Source: Candidatus Chloroploca sp. Khr17 (GTDB lineage: Bacteria > Chloroflexota > Chloroflexia > Chloroflexales > Chloroflexaceae). Taken from it: a stretch of 64,000 bases of DNA. The notes below the pieces were generated by a model. It saw only the letters and a list, made by a program, of their open reading frames with translations, did not search any database and was not told where the DNA came from. The translations under genes and the position numbers were made by a program. Shown piece by piece: positions 9,314 to 19,498 of this stretch. Each line of letters starts with the position of its first letter. The first letter of the stretch is position 1. The DNA lies in contig NZ_RYFF01000004.1 of NCBI RefSeq assembly GCF_004138165.1, positions 62,001 to 126,000 on the forward strand. Direction: 5' to 3'.

Positions 9314-9349
9314 GTTGTAACCAGCCGCACTTGCGCGGCTGGTTACAAC
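9314..9349. terminator. 15-bp perfect stem-loop between convergent genes
   Basis: Bases 9314-9328 pair perfectly with 9335-9349, loop acttgc. It lies between treY (+) and the ferredoxin-fusion gene (-) and overlaps the last codons of the latter. On the + strand it is followed by gaaaaac. Likely works as a bidirectional terminator. Confidence 0.6.
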
Positions 9350-10791
9350 GGAAAAACTTCTTCCACCGGAACCAGTCGTAACGACCCCGTCGGGCACCTG
9401 CTGACACACGTCAGGTCGTTGTACCCATGGCACAAGTCGCATTTGTCGGCGCGATGCGTCGGCCGCGCTGGCTCCAACGGGATCATCGGGCTCCGCCGCA
9501 GGCGATCACTCGCGGCCCGTAGCATTGTCACCAGCGGCCCACGCTGAGGACGCTGGTGGGGCAGCGGGACACTCGCAACGGCATCGTAGGGGCACGCTTC
9601 AAGGCATTTGCCACACCCCGTGCAGGCGTCGGTGATGATCAACACACCGTTTTCGGTGCGCTCAAAGGCGTCATCAGGGCAGACTTCCACACATTCAGCG
9701 CCGACACTGCATTGCCGACAGGTATCCACAACATCAAACTGATCAATCATGGCCCCGTTCAGACTCAAACGGGCACGCCCATGGCGATCGGCACACGCCT
9801 GCTCGCAGATGCGACACTCTGGTGGGCAGAGTTCCGGGGTGCGCACGAGTAGATGAGTGCCCCGCAACAGGCCCTTCGTCACCGCCAGTTCAACCTGGTG
9901 CTTCCGCTCTTCATCATTGCTCACCTTCTCCGAGTTGCTGAGACGGGCTTCGATGACCTGGCGGAGTTGCGCTTCAAGCTCCGGACGCTCTTCAATCAGG
10001 CGGTAAAATTCAGCACCTGGCAGGGCAAGCACATCGGTAGGGGTCAGAGCGCGCACATTCGCCCGATGGGGCTTGCTGGTCAACAACGACATCTCACCAA
10101 AGAAATCGCCTTCACCCAGCGTAGCAATGGTCACGCCATCTTGTTCAACTATCACCTGACCATTCTCAAGCAAATAGAGCGCACTCGCCGGTTCGCCCTG
10201 ACAGATAATGAGGTTACCCCGCGCAACATGCATTGGTTCAAGTAACCCCGCCAAGGCCAGACGCTCCATCGGGAAGAGTTGACTCAACAAGGGGACCCGC
10301 GCCAGGGTACAGTCAACCATTCGCTGCTTGTAGACACGGCGCAAAGCCGCAGCGAGCATGGGCATGCTACTCATTGCGTCGCGGAGTTCGGCCATCGGTA
10401 TCTGCAAAAGGTGGCAGTCGGTTTGTGTCAGTGCGCTCATCCGCCGAAAGAAATCACCAAACAGCGGCCCTTCGCCAAAACAATCGCCACGTGACAATGC
10501 TCCCATCAACACATCGCGGCTATCTTTGTCACGCAAGCGCAAAAACAGGCTCCCCTGCAATATAATGAAGAGGAAGCGATCCTGTTTCTGTTGTCCTAAG
10601 AGCGTCGCCCCGGCAGGGAAAGCGCGAAACGTGCTCATCGCCAGCAGACGGTTCAATTCACCCGGCGGCACATCTTGGAAGCAATCAAGGCACGCCAGCA
10701 CTGCCAGCGCTTCTTTACGCCGCATACTCTCACGATCAGCCCGCGCCTGTGCGACAGGCGAACGGGCTGGTGAAGGTTTTTTTGCCGCCAT
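9343..10791 (-). CDS. Fusion of two cyclic-nucleotide-binding domains with a 16-Cys polyferredoxin
   Basis: 482 residues in two parts. Residues about 35-150 and 165-285 are two cNMP-binding (CRP/PKA-type) domains; both keep the FGE phosphate-cassette motif (FGEGPLFGDFFRR and FGEMSLLTSKPHRANVRA). Residues about 325-470 carry 16 cysteines in four groups: CPPECRICEQAC, CRQCSVGAECVEVCP, CTGCGKCLEACP and CDLCHGYNDLTCVSRCP. The last three closely follow the electron-transfer subunits of the HycB/CooF/AorA type, which bind four [4Fe-4S] clusters. No membrane segment, signal peptide or HTH is visible, so this is a soluble electron carrier with a ligand sensor, not a CRP-type transcription factor. The ATG at 10791 follows aggtagg. 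It is divergent from an aldehyde oxidoreductase gene, its likely redox partner (inference). Confidence 0.85.
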   Translation of the reverse strand: MAAKKPSPARSPVAQARADRESMRRKEALAVLACLDCFQDVPPGELNRLLAMSTFRAFPAGATLLGQQKQDRFLFIILQGSLFLRLRDKDSRDVLMGALSRGDCFGEGPLFGDFFRRMSALTQTDCHLLQIPMAELRDAMSSMPMLAAALRRVYKQRMVDCTLARVPLLSQLFPMERLALAGLLEPMHVARGNLIICQGEPASALYLLENGQVIVEQDGVTIATLGEGDFFGEMSLLTSKPHRANVRALTPTDVLALPGAEFYRLIEERPELEAQLRQVIEARLSNSEKVSNDEERKHQVELAVTKGLLRGTHLLVRTPELCPPECRICEQACADRHGRARLSLNGAMIDQFDVVDTCRQCSVGAECVEVCPDDAFERTENGVLIITDACTGCGKCLEACPYDAVASVPLPHQRPQRGPLVTMLRAASDRLRRSPMIPLEPARPTHRADKCDLCHGYNDLTCVSRCPTGSLRLVPVEEVFPL

Positions 10792-10823
10792 TGCTACCTA
10801 CCTTAGGTCTCATATGCATGAAC

Positions 10824-10906
10824 TTTAGGGCGCTAGCCCTAAAAACCCATATGTATGCTGGTGCAAACCGCCAGTGACGCTGGCTGTTTGCACCAGCATA
10901 CGTATG
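10824..10906 (-). promoter_or_regulatory. Two stem-loops in the presumed leader of the cNMP-ferredoxin gene
   Basis: Bases 10848-10868 pair with 10886-10906 (one G-T wobble). After one mismatch the inner stem 10870-10874/10880-10884 continues, giving about 26 bp in total. A second, 8-bp hairpin lies at 10824-10843. If transcription starts at the promoter near 10952-10979, both are in the 5' leader, the smaller ending about 33 bases before the start codon. Confidence 0.5.
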
Positions 10907-10951
10907 ACGCTTGGGTCCGCAGGCCCCAAACTACTCACAAGCCTGAACCCT

Positions 10952-10979
10952 ACTATACCATACCAGATTGCGCGAGCAA
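10952..10979 (-). promoter_or_regulatory. Candidate promoter for the cNMP-ferredoxin gene
   Basis: On the minus strand TTGCTC (10974-10979) is followed after 16 bases by TATAGT (10952-10957). On the plus strand a TATAAT (10982-10987) facing the oxidoreductase gene lies a few bases away but lacks a clear -35 box. The divergent promoters therefore overlap. Predicted from consensus only. Confidence 0.4.
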
Positions 10980-11020
10980 GGTATAATGGAGGAAAAGAAG
11001 ATGATGTAGCATCGTGAGCA

Positions 11021-12838
11021 ATGTACCTTATGGCTCTCCGTACTCTGACCATTGACCTGGCACGCGGTCACGCTCGCCAGTTTTTGCCGGCTACGGTCGA
11101 ACGCGATTATCTTGGTGGTCGTGGCGCAATTGCATGGCTGCTCTGGCATCACCTGCCGCCCGCTACGGCTCCGATGGCTCCCGAAAATGTGCTGGTCTTT
11201 GCCGCAGGTCCGCTCGCTGGCACCTCTGCGTTTGCCTCGGGCGGCTTTGTGGTTGGAACCCGTTCGCCCCTGACTGGCGCAATTGCTTATAGCTGGGCCC
11301 AGGGTCACTGGGGGGCACAGTTGCGCCGCGCTGGCTATGATGTGCTCGTGATCCGTGGTCAGGCCACCGATTGGGTCTACCTCGCGATCGAGGATAATCA
11401 GGTGCAACTGCACTCGGCAACGCATTTGCTCGGTGCTGATACGGTGGCAACCGCCGCGATGCTTCAAGCTCGCCACGGCTATGAGGCCACTGTGCTCGCA
11501 CTTGGCCCCGCCGGTGAGGCCGAGGTTGCCTATGCCAGCATTGTTGCCGAGGGTCGCTACCCCGCTGAACCCGCCGGCACCGGCGTTGTGATGGGGGCGA
11601 AACGCCTCAAGGCGATCGTCATTCGCGGTGGCCCGCCGTTGACGGCCCACGACCCGCAGCGTATGCAGGCCGCCCTCGATGTCATCCGCCGCCGCGTTGA
11701 AAGCAGCCACGTTGCCGCCGGCCTCAGTGAGGTTGGCAGTAGCCATCTCCTCACGCGTGCCGTTGAGCAAGGCGCGTTCACTGAACACAATGGGCAACGT
11801 GGATACGGCAGTGAGCACATGCTCACCCTTCGGTCTAGCCTCACTGCCCATCCCCGTGAGTCGCGTGGCTGCCAGGATTGTCCGATGCCCTGTTATTTCG
11901 ATCTCTTCCAGAACCCCGAGGTGCGCCGCCCTGTGCCCGAACTTGAATGTGTCGCTGGGTTTGGCGCTTGGTGTGGCATTACTGACCTTGATTGCCTCAC
12001 CCTGCTCGCTGACCGCTGCCTCCGCCTCGGGCTTGATCCCGTTGCGACGAGCGCTGCCGTCAGTTTTCTGATGGAATGCCAAGAGCAGGGGCTGACTCAG
12101 CAGAAGTCGCTCGTCTGGGGCGATGGCAAGGCGATCCTCACTGCCGTCGAGAACCTCGGTCGCAAGCACGAGAAACGTGACCTGCTCTCGCTTGGTGTTG
12201 GTGAGATGCAAGGTGTCTTCTGGGGTAGTGAGGCTTTTGCGCCGCAGGTCAAGGGCCAGGCGATGCCCGCCCTCGATGTGCGTGCGTCCTATCTGCTGGC
12301 CCTCGCGACCGCGACCGCCCCTATTGGCGGCGATTATCGCTATGCGATGGCCTACGAACCCTTCCATCCCACGCCGCCGCCCTGGATTCCTGAACAGTCC
12401 GGAATGCCCCACGACGCTTATGGCAAGGTTGCCCGCCTCATTTGGCACGAGCGCTTCGCCGCCATCCTCGATGCCGCCGGAATCTGCCGCCGCCTCGGGT
12501 TGATGGGCTATCAGATTTCACCACGTGAATTGCTCGCGTTGATCGCCGGGGCAACCGGGGTGGTCTTGACCGGCGCCGATATGTCCCGTCTCGGTGAACG
12601 TATTCTGACGGTCGAACGCCTCTTTGCTCGTCGGTATGCCGATAATGGTGGCCTTGATACGCTCCCCTCTCGCTGGCTGCGTGAGCCGCTTGAAGATGGA
12701 TCCGCCGCCGATCAACTGCCTCCCCTTGCTTCGATGCTCGCCGCATATTATCAGCGCCACGGGTGGTCGCCTGCGGGCGATCCAACCCCCGAACGCCTGG
12801 ATGAGCTTGGCATTAAACGTCCAACGAGTAGTGCTTAG
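11021..12838 (+). CDS. Aldehyde:ferredoxin oxidoreductase family protein (tungsten/molybdenum enzyme)
   Basis: 605 residues of the AOR family: bis-pterin tungsten or molybdenum enzymes with one [4Fe-4S] cluster that oxidise aldehydes (or reduce acids) with ferredoxin. The N-terminal pterin-binding domain shows YLGGRGAIAWLLW and GPLAGTSAFASGGFVVGTRS, followed by VLALGPAGEAEVAYASI and the GTGVVMGAKRLKAI loop. Cluster ligands are Cys284, Cys287 and Cys291 (CQDCPMPC) and, near the C-terminus, Cys489 in AAGICRRLG, matching the CX2CX3C...C pattern. ATG 11021 or ATG 11030 could start the protein; the strong GGAGG at 10988 instead faces an ATG-ATG-TAG minigene at 11001. It ends one base before proB. 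The divergent 16-Cys polyferredoxin is the obvious partner. The substrate cannot be told. Confidence 0.9.
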   Translation: MYLMALRTLTIDLARGHARQFLPATVERDYLGGRGAIAWLLWHHLPPATAPMAPENVLVFAAGPLAGTSAFASGGFVVGTRSPLTGAIAYSWAQGHWGAQLRRAGYDVLVIRGQATDWVYLAIEDNQVQLHSATHLLGADTVATAAMLQARHGYEATVLALGPAGEAEVAYASIVAEGRYPAEPAGTGVVMGAKRLKAIVIRGGPPLTAHDPQRMQAALDVIRRRVESSHVAAGLSEVGSSHLLTRAVEQGAFTEHNGQRGYGSEHMLTLRSSLTAHPRESRGCQDCPMPCYFDLFQNPEVRRPVPELECVAGFGAWCGITDLDCLTLLADRCLRLGLDPVATSAAVSFLMECQEQGLTQQKSLVWGDGKAILTAVENLGRKHEKRDLLSLGVGEMQGVFWGSEAFAPQVKGQAMPALDVRASYLLALATATAPIGGDYRYAMAYEPFHPTPPPWIPEQSGMPHDAYGKVARLIWHERFAAILDAAGICRRLGLMGYQISPRELLALIAGATGVVLTGADMSRLGERILTVERLFARRYADNGGLDTLPSRWLREPLEDGSAADQLPPLASMLAAYYQRHGWSPAGDPTPERLDELGIKRPTSSA

Positions 12839-12839
12839 T

Positions 12840-13958
12840 ATGACGAATCTTCCTTCACGCCTTGTGATCAAGCTCGGTACCAGCGTTCTGACCGCCGGTA
12901 CCGATCGCCTCAATCGCCCGTACCTCGTTAGCCTCGCGCGCCAGGTCGCCGACCTACGCGCTCAGGGGGTTCAGGTACTCCTTGTCTCGTCTGGGGCCGT
13001 CGCTGCTGGCCGCGAACGCCTCAATGATGCGCCCGATCACCGCTTTCGCGCCAATGTGCCCCTCAAACAGGTCTATGCCGCCGTTGGGCAGAGCCGCCTG
13101 ATGCACCTCTACGAGCAACTCTTTGAGTTGTATGGCCTTCAGGTCGCTCAGGCCCTCTTGACCCGCGATGATCTCCGTGACCGTCGACGTTACCTCAATG
13201 CCCGCAATACCCTGTTGCTCTGCATCGAGCGCGGCATTGTGCCGATTATTAATGAAAATGATGCCGTGGTCACCGCCGAGATTCGTGTCGGTGATAACGA
13301 TAATCTCTCGGCTATGGTCGCTGGCCTCGTTGATGCCGATCTTTTGCTGATCCTCACCGATATCACCGGTCTCTATACCGCCGACCCACGCAATGATCCC
13401 AGCGCTGAATTGATCAATGAAGTCGAGGTGATCGATGAGCGGATCTGGAGCATTGCTGGCGCCGCTGGAACCCATCGTGGTACCGGTGGTATGCAGACCA
13501 AGATCCAGGCCGCTGAATTGGCGACCCGCGCCGGTACCACCGTCGTGATTACCTCGGGCATGCAGCCCGATGTGGTGCTCCGTGTTGCCCACGGTGAACG
13601 CCTCGGGACCCGCTTCCCGGCAGCCGCGAGCCACCTCGACTCGCGTAAGCGCTGGATCATCGCCGAAACAGCCCGGCAGAGCCGCCTCGTCGTTGATGCA
13701 GGTGCCGTCCAGGCGCTCCGCTATCAGGGCCGTAGTCTCTTGCCCGCTGGCATTGTGGCCGTCGAGGGTGAATTTGACCGCGGCCAGACGGTGCGTATCT
13801 TTGACCAGGAAGGCCACGAGATCGCCCGCGGCCTGACCCAGTATCGCGCTGCCGATGTCCGGACAATCAAGGGCCTCCGTTCAACGCAGATCGCCGAGAC
13901 CCTTGGGTATGAGTATGGCCCCGCCGTCGTTCATCGTGATGACATGGTGCTGATGTGA
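12840..13958 (+). CDS. proB: Glutamate 5-kinase ProB
   Basis: Catalyses ATP-dependent phosphorylation of glutamate, the first step of proline synthesis. 372 residues with an N-terminal amino-acid kinase domain (LVIKLGTSVLTAG, VLLVSSGAVAAGRERL, PIINENDAVVT, GDNDNLSAMVAGLVDADLL, GTGGMQTKIQAAELA) and a C-terminal PUA domain (about 275-372). I chose ATG 12840, right after the preceding stop (tagtatg), because the kinase motif begins there; the frame is open further upstream but that stretch lies inside the oxidoreductase gene and has no family similarity. No proA is visible nearby. The gene overlaps the next by four bases (GTGA), so AOR, proB and uvrA probably form one transcript. Confidence 0.95.
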   Translation: MTNLPSRLVIKLGTSVLTAGTDRLNRPYLVSLARQVADLRAQGVQVLLVSSGAVAAGRERLNDAPDHRFRANVPLKQVYAAVGQSRLMHLYEQLFELYGLQVAQALLTRDDLRDRRRYLNARNTLLLCIERGIVPIINENDAVVTAEIRVGDNDNLSAMVAGLVDADLLLILTDITGLYTADPRNDPSAELINEVEVIDERIWSIAGAAGTHRGTGGMQTKIQAAELATRAGTTVVITSGMQPDVVLRVAHGERLGTRFPAAASHLDSRKRWIIAETARQSRLVVDAGAVQALRYQGRSLLPAGIVAVEGEFDRGQTVRIFDQEGHEIARGLTQYRAADVRTIKGLRSTQIAETLGYEYGPAVVHRDDMVLM

Positions 13959-16696
13959 GCTGGATTATTGTCCGTGGTGCCCGTGAGCACAATCTTAAAA
14001 ATATTGATGTGCGCTTGCCCCGTAATCAGTTGGTGGTCATCACCGGTCTCTCGGGGTCGGGCAAGAGTACGCTGGCGTTCGATACGATCTTTGCCGAAGG
14101 CCAGCGGCGTTATGTCGAAAGTCTTTCGGTGGCCGCTCGTCAGTTTCTCGGCCAACTCGCCAAACCAGATGTTGATGCCATCGAGGGTCTTTCGCCAGCG
14201 ATTGCGATTGATCAGCACAGCGGGAGCCGTCATCCGCGCTCAACGGTCGGAACCGTCACCGAGATCTATGATTTTCTGCGCCTCCTCTTTGCCCGCACCG
14301 GTCAACCACACTGTCCGCAGTGCGGCCTGCCCCTCATCCGCCACTCGGTGCAAGAAATGGTTGATGCGATCCTTACCCTCCCCGAGGCGAGCCGCCTGCT
14401 CTTGCTTGCTCCGCTGATTGCCCAGCGTACCGGCGATCACGTGCTGGTCTTTGATGAAATGCGCCGCCGTGGCTTTGTCCGCGTGCGCGTCAATGGCGAT
14501 GTCCGTGACCTTGATGAGGTCATCACCCTCGATCCTCAACTCAGCCATACGATCGAGGTGGTGGTCGATCGCTTGATTGTGCGCCATCCCCCAACCAACG
14601 TTGCTCGCCCCCGCGCTGATCAACTCGCCGAACACCCCGATCGCGTGCGCATTACCGACTCGGTCGAGACGGCCCTCAAGCTTACCGCAGGGCGGTTGCT
14701 TGTGCATACGCTCAATGGCGCAACCCTGAGCTTTTCACAGGCCTATGCCTGCCCCGATCACGGGTCGATCAACCTCTTCAACCTCGAACCACGTCATTTT
14801 TCGTTCAATAGCCCGCACGGTGCCTGCCCAACCTGTGATGGTCTGGGCCAAATCGCTGAACGCGATCTCGGTGCGCATCGTGACCATGCGTTGCCTGCAT
14901 CTACGCTCCCTGATGAACTTCCCGCTGATCAAGAAGAAGCCGACGAGGCTGCCCTGCTCAACGGGGCTTTCCAGATCTGCCCTTCGTGCCACGGCGATCG
15001 CCTGCGGGCTGAAGTGCGGGCCGTCACTTTTGCCGACCAAACCTTGCCCAACATCAATCGGATGCCGATCACCGAGGCGTTGGCCTGGACCCAGAGGATC
15101 TTGATGCTGGTGGAGGAAAAACCGCCCACGTCACCAGCAGACCATCCCTCAACCGACGCCGACCCTGCCCCCACAGAAGCAGGCACGGCACCCACAACCC
15201 TCACCACCCGCCAACGCTTGATCGCCGCCCCGCTACTCAAAGACGTCGTCGAACGCCTTGCCTTCCTTGTCGATGTTGGTCTTGGCTACCTCACCCTCGA
15301 CCGGGCGGCCACGACCCTCAGCGGCGGCGAGAGTCAACGCATCCGTCTGGCAACCCAGGTTGGCGCGGGGCTCTCGGGGGTGATCTATGTGCTTGACGAA
15401 CCAAGCACCGGTCTCCATCCCCGTGACCACGAGCGTCTGTTGCGGACGCTCATCCGCCTCCGCGACCTCGGCAATAGTGTGCTGGTCGTTGAACACGATG
15501 AGGCGACGATCCGCGCCGCCGATTGGATTGTTGATATTGGGCCCGGTGCTGGCCCACAAGGCGGCGAATTGATCGTCAGTGGCACCCTCGAAACCGTGCT
15601 CGCCGAGCCGCGCTCACTCACCGGGCAGTACCTCAGTGGCAAGCGCCAAGTCCCACGCCCAACGCAGCGACGCCCCGGCAACGGTCGCTTCCTGACCATC
15701 CGTGGCTGCCGTGAAAACAATCTACACGATCTCGACGTGACGGTTCCGCTCGGATGCCTCGTGGTCGTCACCGGTGTGTCAGGCAGTGGCAAAAGCAGCC
15801 TCGTCATGGATACGCTCTATCCTCGCCTCGCCCAAGAATTGCATGGCGCCCAGGGTCGCGTCGGGCTCCATACGAGCCTCGAAGGGCTCGCAGCTATTGA
15901 CAAAGTTGTCGCGATTGATCAGCACCCCATCGGGCGCACGCCACGCTCAAATCCAGCCACCTACAGTCGCGTCTTTGACCCAATGCGCAACCTCTTTGCC
16001 GCCACCACCGAGGCCCGCGCCCGCGGGTACGATGCCTCACGCTTTAGCTTCAATGCCCGGGGTGGCCGCTGTGAAGCCTGTAGTGGCGAGGGTCTGATCC
16101 GCGTCGAAATGCAGTTCCTTCCCGATCTCTTTGTGCCCTGCGACCGCTGTGGTGGCGCCCGCTACAACCGTGAAACCCTCGATATACGCTATCGCGACCA
16201 GACCATTGCCGATGTGCTCGCCATGACCGTCGCCGAGGGTGCCGAGTTTTTTGCCCGCGTCCCCGCGATTGCCGAACGGCTGCAAACGCTGCTTGATGTT
16301 GGCGTCGGCTATATCCGCCTCGGCCAACCGGCCAATACTCTCTCGGGCGGCGAAGCACAACGGATCAAACTGGCAACCGAACTGGCCCGTCGCGCCACTG
16401 GACGCACCCTCTATATCCTTGATGAGCCAACCAGCGGCCTGCACATTGCCGATATCGAACGCCTCTTGAGCATCCTGCATCGCCTCGTTGATGCAGGCAA
16501 TACCGTCATGGTCATCGAGCATAACCTCGATGTCATCCTGCACGCCGACTGGGTGCTTGACCTAGGACCCGAGGGCGGCAGCGGCGGTGGGCAACTCGTC
16601 GCCGCTGGCCCCCCTGAAACAGTGATGCAGGTCACCACCTCACCCACGGGAACATACCTTGCCAGACATCACGCGTCACTGATCAACCAAGGTTAA
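13955..16696 (+). CDS. uvrA: Excinuclease ABC subunit A (UvrA)
   Basis: Damage-recognition ATPase of nucleotide excision repair. 913 residues, somewhat shorter than the usual 930-960. Two ABC modules are complete: Walker [10 protein letters not shown] (about 32) and GVSGSGKSS (about 607), signatures [14 protein letters not shown] and [14 protein letters not shown], and Walker [11 protein letters not shown] and [10 protein letters not shown]. Zinc sites include [14 protein letters not shown] in the second half. In the first half one usual Cys pair reads CPDH before CPTCDG, so that site would be C-X2-H. A Pro/Thr/Asp-rich stretch (about 390-415) precedes the first signature and looks like a flexible insert. 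The GTG start overlaps the proB stop. Grouping with proB and an AOR is unusual; no uvrB or uvrC is in the window. Confidence 0.95.
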
Positions 16697-16705
16697 CATA
16701 ATTAA

Positions 16706-16735
16706 TTGACGATACGGTAAGCCATCGTGTACAAT
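16706..16735 (+). promoter_or_regulatory. Candidate promoter upstream of the beta-helix/response-regulator genes
   Basis: TTGACG (16706-16711), 18-base spacer, TACAAT (16730-16735), ten bases after the uvrA stop. It is one of two good matches in the 208-bp gap before the next gene, and the resulting leader would be about 160 bases. Confidence 0.5.
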
Positions 16736-16800
16736 ACCAATACTCACCCCTACTGCGAAACCACGCATGGTTCTCGTAATGCGACTGTAACCTCGCCTAC

Positions 16801-16829
16801 TTGTGATCCCGGTCGCTACATCCTATAGT
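16801..16829 (+). promoter_or_regulatory. Second candidate promoter in the same gap
   Basis: TTGTGA (16801-16806), 17-base spacer, TATAGT (16824-16829). It would give a leader of about 70 bases for the gene starting at 16905. Confidence 0.45.
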
Positions 16830-16904
16830 ACTTCGTAGGGGATGTATGCCGTCAAGGTGGGTAGTCACCATCTCTCATGTTGCCGTGCAAGAAAGGGGAT
16901 CTCG

Positions 16905-18545
16905 ATGGAGCGCATCATCATCCGCGATCATCAACCGATCGCTCCGTTTGCTGAACCCGCACGCGAATTACGTATTCTGAATAAGCCTCTTTGGTTGCTC
17001 CAACGCGATCTGCTCAAACATCATTGCAAAGGCAGTCTTGAAATAAATTCAATTGAAGATCTTTTCACTCAACAAAACAGCAACTCAGATGAGTTATTAG
17101 TTTATCGTGATAATCTCTATTTTAATGGCAACCTTATCGAGGCGTTCATCAGTGCCGCGCGCACTTCGGGGCGTGCCTGCCAGATCGCGTTTCGTGCCAG
17201 CAATCCTGCCACCGGCGTACGGGGTGACCCCACTATCGAACGCCATGCGTTGCAGTTGACCCGTGGTTTTGTTGCGCGCACCGCGCAACCCTGCCTCGAT
17301 GAAGGTCGCGAAGTGTGCGCCGATGTCTATCTTGCCGAACTCTACTATTTCCCTCACGGCCCCGTTCAAGAACCTATCCCGCTTATTATCGAAACCCAGA
17401 GCCACGAGATGGGCTATTATCATATCCCAAGTTATATGGCGCATAAGGGCGATCTCACCTATCAGATTCCGTTGCGCGCTTTTCTTTCCCTTGAAAGCTG
17501 GGTGCATGTCTTTATCGCCAATATCTTGATGGGTGTCTTCACCGATGCGGCAGCGCAAGATGTCAAAATGAGCCGCGCTCGCCTCAAAGATGTGCTGCAC
17601 TGGAAACGCGAAGACTGGCGTATCTTTGTTGATAAGGCCGGCTTCTCGGCAGCGGCAATCTGGCAACGCCTCAATCCCTTTGAAGAGATGTGGCGCAACC
17701 ATTTCCTCGCCTCCCACGCCCTCGTCAAAGTAGGTAAAAATTGCTCGATTGATCCTTCGGCAACCATCCACGGGCCAACCGTGATCGGGGATAATGTCTA
17801 TATCGGACCAGGCGTTGTGATTGCCAATAGCATCATCGGCAATAATGTCAATGTGATGCAGGGAAGTCAGGTGATGCTCAGTGTGGTCAGTGATCGCTGT
17901 TTCCTCCCCTTCAATGCGGGTCTCTTTATGACCACCTTGATGGAAAATAGTATGGTCGCTCAGAATTCCACCCTGCAGTTGACCGTCGTTGGGCGCAATA
18001 CGTTTATCGGGGCCAATAATTGTTTTACCGATTTCAATCTGCAAAATGAACCAATCAAAGTAATGCATCAGGGCGAGGCTGTTGAAGTGCATCTCCCCGT
18101 CCTGGGCTCAGCTGTGGGTCATAATGTGAAAATCGGCAGTGGCTTTGTCGTCTACCCTGGACGAATGATCGAGTCGAATACCGTTATAATCTTTGATCAT
18201 GATCAGGGCTTGATTAGCAAGACGGTCAGGGGGCACGATGTCGACGATGTCGACGTTGGTACCGGTGAACCACGCCGGATTATCTATCACTGGCCCAATG
18301 TCTACCACGATCCAGCCCAACCAGACCATCCTGAACCACCTGGGGCATCTCTTGAACAGATCCAACCAGCCTATCCCAACGGAAGCTGCCGTTCTAATGG
18401 CGATCACCACGATGCGTCCGCTTTGCATGAGCATCAGTCGTTGCCAGCCCCAGCCCGCTCAATCAGTCAACCGACTGGCTCTGTCAGCCAGCAGCACCAG
18501 CGCGTCGGTGTTTCTCCCACCAGTGCGAGGAGGTCAATCCGGTGA
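16905..18545 (+). CDS. Left-handed beta-helix (hexapeptide) protein with nucleotidyltransferase-like N-terminus
   Basis: 546 residues if started at ATG 16905, which follows gaaagggga; an upstream in-frame ATG at 16842 lacks a ribosome site. Residues about 275-425 form hexapeptide repeats of the left-handed beta-helix type (CSIDPSATIHGPTVIGDN, VYIGPGVVIANSIIGNN, VVGRNTFIGANN, VGHNVKIGSGFVVYPG), as in sugar-nucleotide pyrophosphorylases and acyltransferases. The first 250 residues weakly resemble the N-terminal part of GlmU-like NTP_transf_4 proteins (ARELRILNKPLWLLQRD) but lack a clear nucleotide-binding signature. The last 75 residues are Pro/Ser/Gln/His-rich and probably disordered. The stop overlaps the GTG of the following response regulator by four bases, so the two are translationally coupled. 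Activity unknown. Confidence 0.75.
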   Translation: MERIIIRDHQPIAPFAEPARELRILNKPLWLLQRDLLKHHCKGSLEINSIEDLFTQQNSNSDELLVYRDNLYFNGNLIEAFISAARTSGRACQIAFRASNPATGVRGDPTIERHALQLTRGFVARTAQPCLDEGREVCADVYLAELYYFPHGPVQEPIPLIIETQSHEMGYYHIPSYMAHKGDLTYQIPLRAFLSLESWVHVFIANILMGVFTDAAAQDVKMSRARLKDVLHWKREDWRIFVDKAGFSAAAIWQRLNPFEEMWRNHFLASHALVKVGKNCSIDPSATIHGPTVIGDNVYIGPGVVIANSIIGNNVNVMQGSQVMLSVVSDRCFLPFNAGLFMTTLMENSMVAQNSTLQLTVVGRNTFIGANNCFTDFNLQNEPIKVMHQGEAVEVHLPVLGSAVGHNVKIGSGFVVYPGRMIESNTVIIFDHDQGLISKTVRGHDVDDVDVGTGEPRRIIYHWPNVYHDPAQPDHPEPPGASLEQIQPAYPNGSCRSNGDHHDASALHEHQSLPAPARSISQPTGSVSQQHQRVGVSPTSARRSIR

Positions 18546-19498
18546 GCAAAGAACGTATTCTAGTCGTTGAAGACCAGCCTGATATTTCCAACTTGCTCAA
18601 GATCTATTTCACCTCACGCGGTTACGAGGTCTTCACCGCGATGCGTGGTTCCCATGCACTGGAGATCTGTAGCAAAACACCACCCAATCTCGCCCTCCTC
18701 GATGTCAATCTTCCCGATATGGAAGGCTATGAAATTGGGCGGGCGTTGCGGGCCAACCCCCGCACACGCCATATTCCGATCATCTTTTTGACGGCACGCG
18801 GTGAACGCCGCGACCGTCTGATCGGCCTCGGTGAAGTGCAGGCTCAGTACTATATCGTCAAACCCTTTGATATCGAAGAAGTTCATACGATTGTCAAGAA
18901 CCAACTTGATGAGGCCCGGCGCAAAAATCAGTTGCACCCCGTCACCAATCTCCCTACCGCCGAGTTGATCAATGAGCAACTCCGCAATCTCTTGACGACC
19001 CAGGGTTGGGCGATGGCCCAGATCCATATCAATGGCTTCGAGACCTTTACCCAGAGTTATGGCTCGGTTGTGGGTGAGGATGTGCTCAAGTTTACCGCAT
19101 TGCTCCTCAACGAGGGTGTCACCGAAGTTGGCGTAGGGAACTCTGATGAGTTTGTCGGCCAAATGGTGGTCGGACCTGATTTTGTCGTGACCTCAACCCC
19201 TGAACGGATCAAGCTGATCTGTGAACATTTACTAAATCGTTTTGACGAAGAAATTGGGTTACACTACAATTTTCGCCATCGTAAACAGGGCTTCCTGGAG
19301 GTCACTGATGAGAACGGAACGATGCGTCAGGTGCCGTTGATGTCGCTCGCTATCGGTGTCCTGACTAGTCAGGACGGCCCGTTTTACGATATCCGTGAAC
19401 TCAGCGAGACTGCTGCCGAAACACGCCAGCGCGCCACCCATCAGGCGCGTGAGCAGGGCCGTAAGAGTTGGGTTGCCTATGGTCGGGGGCATGCCTAG
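18542..19498 (+). CDS. Response regulator with degenerate GGDEF output domain
   Basis: 318 residues. Residues 1-120 are a receiver domain with acidic pocket VVEDQPD, phosphoacceptor Asp54 (LALLDVNLPD), Thr/Ser in IFLTARG and Lys in YIVKPFD. After HPVTNLPTAELINEQL, a segment typical of the start of diguanylate cyclase domains, residues about 140-250 follow the GGDEF fold, but the active-site motif reads GVGNSDEF instead of GGDEF. Cyclase activity is therefore unlikely; a binding or dimerisation role is more plausible. The GTG start follows gaggaggtc and overlaps the upstream gene. The giant kinase gene begins 92 bp downstream and is the probable cognate kinase (inference from context). Confidence 0.85.
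   Translation: MSKERILVVEDQPDISNLLKIYFTSRGYEVFTAMRGSHALEICSKTPPNLALLDVNLPDMEGYEIGRALRANPRTRHIPIIFLTARGERRDRLIGLGEVQAQYYIVKPFDIEEVHTIVKNQLDEARRKNQLHPVTNLPTAELINEQLRNLLTTQGWAMAQIHINGFETFTQSYGSVVGEDVLKFTALLLNEGVTEVGVGNSDEFVGQMVVGPDFVVTSTPERIKLICEHLLNRFDEEIGLHYNFRHRKQGFLEVTDENGTMRQVPLMSLAIGVLTSQDGPFYDIRELSETAAETRQRATHQAREQGRKSWVAYGRGHA

Follow-up and report, generated by a model that had tools for sequence, protein, structure and literature searches.

In Candidatus Chloroploca sp. Khr17, a gene that fuses two cyclic nucleotide-binding (CNB) domains to a polyferredoxin is transcribed divergently from a gene for an enzyme of the aldehyde:ferredoxin oxidoreductase (AOR) or WOR family (Table 1). Both genes lie in a 64,000-nucleotide stretch of contig NZ_RYFF01000004.1 (positions 62,001 to 126,000), referred to here as the window. 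The fusion is real and conserved, and it is apparently undescribed in the open-access literature, limited searches of which returned no description of a CNB–polyferredoxin fusion. We tentatively favor a reading in which it is a WorS/HycB-type electron-transfer subunit that carries a degenerate tandem CNB unit and has been recruited, in one family, to a non-canonical WOR. The genome that holds the window is a 6.4-Mb draft, and its fusion protein is 96-97% identical to the versions from C. mongolica and C. asiatica. Family and genus labels throughout were read from named relatives, and the window's family is Chloroflexaceae on that basis.

A fusion protein with sixteen invariant cysteines

Domain searches of the fusion open reading frame (ORF) returned Fer4 matches and two stretches matching PF00027 (E 7.8e-39 for the whole protein), which bears out a preliminary description, made from the DNA letters alone, of two cyclic nucleotide-type domains joined to a 16-cysteine, four-cluster module. 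All 16 cysteines are invariant in an alignment of 57 rows (the window protein included, some genomes possibly represented twice), with one row truncated before the last four, which the other 56 all have. Conservation of this kind at identities down to ~37% excludes chance. Four [4Fe-4S] clusters are predicted for the fusion from these cysteine groups.

Compared with the PDB, the module matched polyferredoxins, HycB3/HycB4, the small subunit 9mqx_E, AorA (8c0z_C) and the WOR5 small subunit (6x6u_B), so that the likeness to AOR electron-transfer subunits seen earlier is upheld. The profile values (HycB3, 2.7e-15; 9mqx_E, 1.8e-13; AorA, 9.6e-11) do not separate the WorS from the HycB subfamily, and at the level of sequence the module is best described as a WorS/HycB-type double ferredoxin. 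In a related observation, a 136-residue candidate WorS ORF adjoining another Chloroflexota WOR is 31% identical to the module.

The fusion resembles the WorS/AorA small subunits (Class II WORs, PMC13328260; Aromatoleum AorABC, PMC10413684; WOR5, 6x6u; 9mqx_E) in being a four-cluster double ferredoxin of detectable sequence similarity that is encoded, in the window's family, beside a WOR large subunit. It differs from them in its length of 480 residues, its two N-terminal CNB domains and its frequent separation from the large subunit, and members of the HycB family match it equally. The HycB/HydN/FdhB-type subunits (HDCR HycB3/HycB4, 7qv7) share the four cysteine groups and are among the best full-module matches in the PDB, but they lack a CNB fusion, and no hydrogenase or formate dehydrogenase genes were noted beside the window fusion.

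The CNB domains and the cyclic nucleotide site

Canonical CNB domains carry a phosphate-contacting Arg within a PR[ST]A motif, and the FGE cassette is only one part of the cyclic nucleotide site. The FGE cassettes reported in the preliminary description are indeed present in both domains, but the Arg is absent from CNB-B. Specifically, Arg never occurs in the corresponding column of the fusion alignment, where 50 of 57 rows have His, whereas CNB relatives outside the fusion family have Arg in 61 of 75 rows and the Glu of the phosphate-binding cassette in 75 of 75. This Glu, a ribose contact, is found in both domains of the window protein (E107 and E233) and across the family in 45 of 57 rows for CNB-A and 51 of 57 for CNB-B. 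Arg116 of CNB-A is kept in 43 of 57 rows, with the Arg lost in 14 and the Glu in 12, including Herpetosiphonaceae-like genomes.

An AlphaFold2 model of the whole fusion (pLDDT mostly 70-90 in the CNB part and 40-70 in the ferredoxin part) lacks the helix after FGE in CNB-A, though in a stretch where pLDDT is only 60-70. CNB-B keeps the Glu, a Gly and a predicted helix behind FGE, and His242 is nearly invariant. The modelled tandem was matched by Foldseek to PKA and PKG regulatory subunits, and in NCBIfam the CNB part matched a CNB-containing encapsulin 2B shell below the cut-off.

With CNB-B devoid of the Arg and CNB-A eroded in several families, direct gating by cAMP or cGMP is unlikely as a family-wide property, and the general mechanism put forward in the preliminary description is not sustained. 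That description had itself named pockets without the ligand-contacting Arg or Glu as evidence against its proposal, and one pocket, that of CNB-B, proved to lack the Arg. Judged by its residues, CNB-A of the window species may possibly permit such gating. Nine matches to the class III cyclase domain (PF00211) in the window's genome suggest that a cyclic nucleotide may be made in this organism.

In trypanosomatid PKA, a CNB domain without the phosphate Arg can bind another ligand, namely nucleosides (PMC10959531). PKA regulatory subunits, these cAMP-independent ones included (6flo, 6hyi), share the tandem CNB fold with the fusion by Foldseek, and the trypanosomatid form has lost the phosphate Arg too. 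The fusion differs in having no kinase, and CNB-B has Ala or Ser in place of the Glu that defines the trypanosomatid ribose site (Ala202 position), so a nucleoside site of that type is not implied and we did not retain it.

The same genome also encodes a stand-alone CNB protein of 165 residues (L216:12476-12973, G000:C96), without FGE and without an Arg at the usual place. By reading, its gene sits directly downstream of a cluster resembling HdrCBA-MvhD-[NiFe]-hydrogenase and of a maturation-protease-like gene.

The AOR-family enzyme and its pairing with the fusion

The divergent ORF (11021-12838, plus strand) carries PF02730 (AFOR_N) and PF01314 (AFOR_C) and has all four cluster cysteines (C284, C287, C291 and C489), as the preliminary description had noted. 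Translation probably starts at ATG 11030, the position suggested by most orthologs, which begin aligning at query residue 4. The closest PDB match, 9mqx_D, belongs to the entry that also supplies the small subunit 9mqx_E. Family domains and cluster cysteines thus uphold the earlier identification as a tungsten/molybdenum AOR, but the cofactor site agrees less well with it. Thr243, Glu313, Tyr427 and His448 (PfAOR numbering) are reported as cofactor residues of most aldehyde-oxidizing WORs (PMC13328260); the window enzyme has Ser, Glu, Leu and Tyr at these positions, keeping one of the four. Relative to PfAOR (1aor) and 9mqx_D, it therefore shares both domains, the cluster cysteines and Glu313 (Glu309 here), but departs at Thr243, Tyr427 and His448 and also at Arg76, which is replaced by Gly.

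Most of these departures hold in 44 ortholog rows, among which some loci are represented twice: Ser occurs in 42 of 44, Glu in 44, Leu or Ile in 44, and Tyr in 34 with His in one. Because three of the four reported residues are changed, aldehyde activity of the window enzyme is doubtful, and "aldehyde:ferredoxin oxidoreductase" serves here as a family name. Residue departures are also found in other WORs of the phylum, which indicates that the window AOR clade is divergent and not unique. A second WOR of the same genome (L213:8397-10211, G000:C96) keeps all four canonical residues; its gene lies a few kb past the hydrogenase cluster. As a side observation, the translations of L213 at ~14700-18700 contain repeated units resembling a CRISPR array.

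The distribution of the pair was surveyed in 60 Chloroflexales genomes: the fusion is found in 53, spread over every family of the order, and the AOR clade in 43. In the window's family the two genes are adjacent and divergent in 20 of the 21 genomes that have both, the exception having its genes near contig ends, and the pair persists across seven genera while neighbors on the polyferredoxin side vary. At a completeness of at least 90%, 38 genomes hold both genes, 10 the fusion only, none the AOR only and four neither. Given this absence of AOR-only genomes against 10 with the fusion only, the AOR seems to need the fusion, and not vice versa. Moreover, the 13 loci of unlinked AORs examined hold no other CxxCxxCxxxC ORF, so that no alternative small subunit is encoded alongside. 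MoaA (PF06463) occurs in 57 of the 60 genomes, making pterin synthesis plausible and, for the same reason, MoaA uninformative as a co-occurrence marker for the AOR or the fusion.

Several observations weigh against a dedicated partnership of this kind. In other families, the fusion and the AOR are linked in none of the 20 genomes that have both, and in one single-contig genome they stand ~1.5 Mb apart. Even without the AOR in the genome, the fusion persists with its full set of cysteines; taken with the unlinked pairs, this argues that it is not dedicated to the AOR. Co-occurrence at the above completeness (Fisher p 0.004) was assessed with a statistic that ignores phylogeny. The AOR–proB order, kept in 17 of 20 window-family loci examined, is nearly as conserved a pair, so adjacency alone is weak to modest evidence. 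Distance correlations with the AOR were 0.79-0.88 for CNB-A, CNB-B and the ferredoxin alike, without singling out the ferredoxin; as a guide to the contacting domain the measure fails, CNB-A being highest after correction for the ferredoxin. Finally, HycB3/HycB4 match the module equally well or better than WorS/AorA do, and the module modelled alone reached a mean pLDDT of 47, a low confidence.

The link between AOR and polyferredoxin proposed in the preliminary description thus holds for the divergent arrangement in the window's family and gains from the lack of AOR-only genomes, but it does not extend to gene order elsewhere. Homologues lying away from AOR genes, which that description had said would count against it, turned up in Nitrospirota and in three of the four families. 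A search of the other Chloroflexota sampled (E <= 1e-30) gave no full-length relative. Two Nitrospirota CNB-CNB-polyferredoxins (L022:528-2411 and L023:4575-6146) are 25-26% identical to the window protein and, by reading, also lack the phosphate Arg; no AOR was seen among the ORFs of the stretches around them, and the adjoining genes are unrelated. Outside the window's family, the genes around the fusion are for the most part unrelated or of housekeeping type, as judged by inspection of their sequences. In three families the AOR neighborhood contains a predicted multi-membrane-helix protein that reads as PrsW-like (L171, L172, L174, L177, L179, L191 and L199). With proB as neighbor, we also considered the AOR as a replacement for ProA and rejected this, as another part of the genome has a proA match above the cut-off.

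With respect to the intergenic region, -10-like motifs stand back to back between the two genes, and comparable pairs 25-30 bp apart are found as pattern matches in several relatives; this arrangement suggests coordinated expression of the fusion and the AOR. A consensus scan of the window for sigma-70 sites returned none. The inverted repeat upstream of the fusion has arms that differ in sequence yet stay complementary in two genus relatives, and GGTTTTT comes next on the minus strand. In none of the three genus genomes searched does the arm sequence CATAYGTATGCTGGTG occur outside this pair. This repeat in the fusion leader could be an attenuator.

Table 1. Positions of the features discussed, in window coordinates
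Feature	Position	Strand	Basis or remark
CNB-CNB-polyferredoxin fusion	9343..10791	-	482 aa; ORF list, PF00027 and Fer4 matches
CNB-A, about residues 33-143	10363..10695	-	Glu107 and Arg116 present in window; lost in part of family
CNB-B, about residues 163-290	9922..10305	-	FGE kept; His242 in place of the phosphate-contacting Arg
His242 codon	10066..10068	-	canonical phosphate-binding-cassette Arg position; His 50/57, Arg never
Four-cluster ferredoxin module, residues 307-482	9346..9873	-	domain and PDB profile matches
Cys group 1 (C322, C326, C329, C333)	9793..9828	-	alignment
Cys group 2 (C358, C361, C367, C371)	9679..9720	-	alignment
Cys group 3 (C390, C393, C396, C400)	9592..9624	-	alignment
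Cys group 4 (C451, C454, C462, C466)	9394..9441	-	alignment
AOR/WOR-family large subunit	11030..12838	+	ORF opens at 11021; PF02730 and PF01314
CxxCxxxC of WOR [4Fe-4S] cluster (C284, C287, C291)	11870..11893	+	fourth ligand C489 at 12485-12487
Ser240 at PfAOR Thr243 position	11738-11740	+	alignment
Leu418 at PfAOR Tyr427 position	12272-12274	+	alignment
Tyr439 at PfAOR His448 position	12335..12337	+	alignment
27-bp inverted repeat, 93% complementary	10848..10906		upstream of fusion, in presumed 5' leader
Back-to-back divergent -10-like motifs	10951..10988		GGTATAGTA on - (10951-10959), GGTATAATG on + (10980-10988); pattern only
proB (glutamate 5-kinase)	12840..13958	+	single base between AOR stop and proB start (12838-12840); second conserved neighbor in window's family

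Possible roles of the fusion

In terms of function, the fusion would be a double ferredoxin that holds four [4Fe-4S] clusters and serves as a soluble subunit for electron transfer; its N-terminal tandem does not retain both canonical cAMP/cGMP sites in full. Within the window's family, the neighboring WOR-family enzyme would have recruited it as a redox partner, and the two genes are probably expressed in coordination from the back-to-back divergent promoters. Electrons would pass from a W/Mo bis-pterin to the WOR cluster, on to the polyferredoxin and then to a further carrier, or the opposite way. Such transfer may be tuned or scaffolded by the CNB pair, whether by means of another ligand, weak cyclic nucleotide binding at CNB-A or protein-protein contacts. 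A stronger version, in which the tandem acts as a ligand-gated electron wire, sensing a non-canonical small molecule via the conserved His242 pocket and switching transfer between a non-aldehyde WOR and the redox pool at the protein level, we consider unlikely.

The possibility that the fusion is instead a stand-alone polyferredoxin or redox-linked CNB protein that works with several low-potential enzymes or senses redox state, with the AOR adjacency reflecting inherited gene order, deserves serious attention even if we doubt it. It accords with the occurrence of the fusion in every family of the order, in genomes without an AOR and beside unrelated genes in Nitrospirota, with the mostly housekeeping or unrelated surroundings outside the window's family, and with AOR–proB synteny of similar conservation. 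Harder to reconcile with it are the lack of AOR-only genomes at high completeness, the promoter-like motifs between the two genes, and the survival of the pair in seven genera despite changing outer neighbors.

Two further proposals concern the CNB pair itself. Binding of cAMP or cGMP, mainly at CNB-A in the window's family, with direct gating of AOR electron flow, is quite improbable in our estimation: the canonical spacing of Glu107 and Arg116, shared by the window protein and its close relatives, the grouping of the tandem with PKA regulatory subunits and the cyclase-domain matches speak for it, but the Arg is missing from CNB-B in every row, CNB-A has lost its Glu and/or Arg in whole lineages, and its model, in a low-confidence stretch, has no helix after FGE. 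Nor do we give much weight, less than to any other proposal here, to CNB domains that are purely structural, ligand-free units for dimerization or docking, as may hold for other degenerate CNB proteins. The eroded ligand residues, the sub-cut-off match to the encapsulin 2B shell and the degenerate stand-alone protein at the hydrogenase cluster are consistent with such a role, whereas the near-invariant His242, together with the Glu, Gly and predicted helix of CNB-B, points to selection on a pocket.

The most familiar role of CNB domains is the control of kinases, channels and transcription factors. A CNB unit fused to a four-cluster electron relay, and conserved throughout an order that comprises phototrophs and their relatives, would link a signal directly to electron flow, here next to a WOR-family enzyme with a non-canonical site. 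The loss of the cAMP/cGMP signature from one pocket makes the fusion a tractable case for learning what degenerate CNB domains bind.

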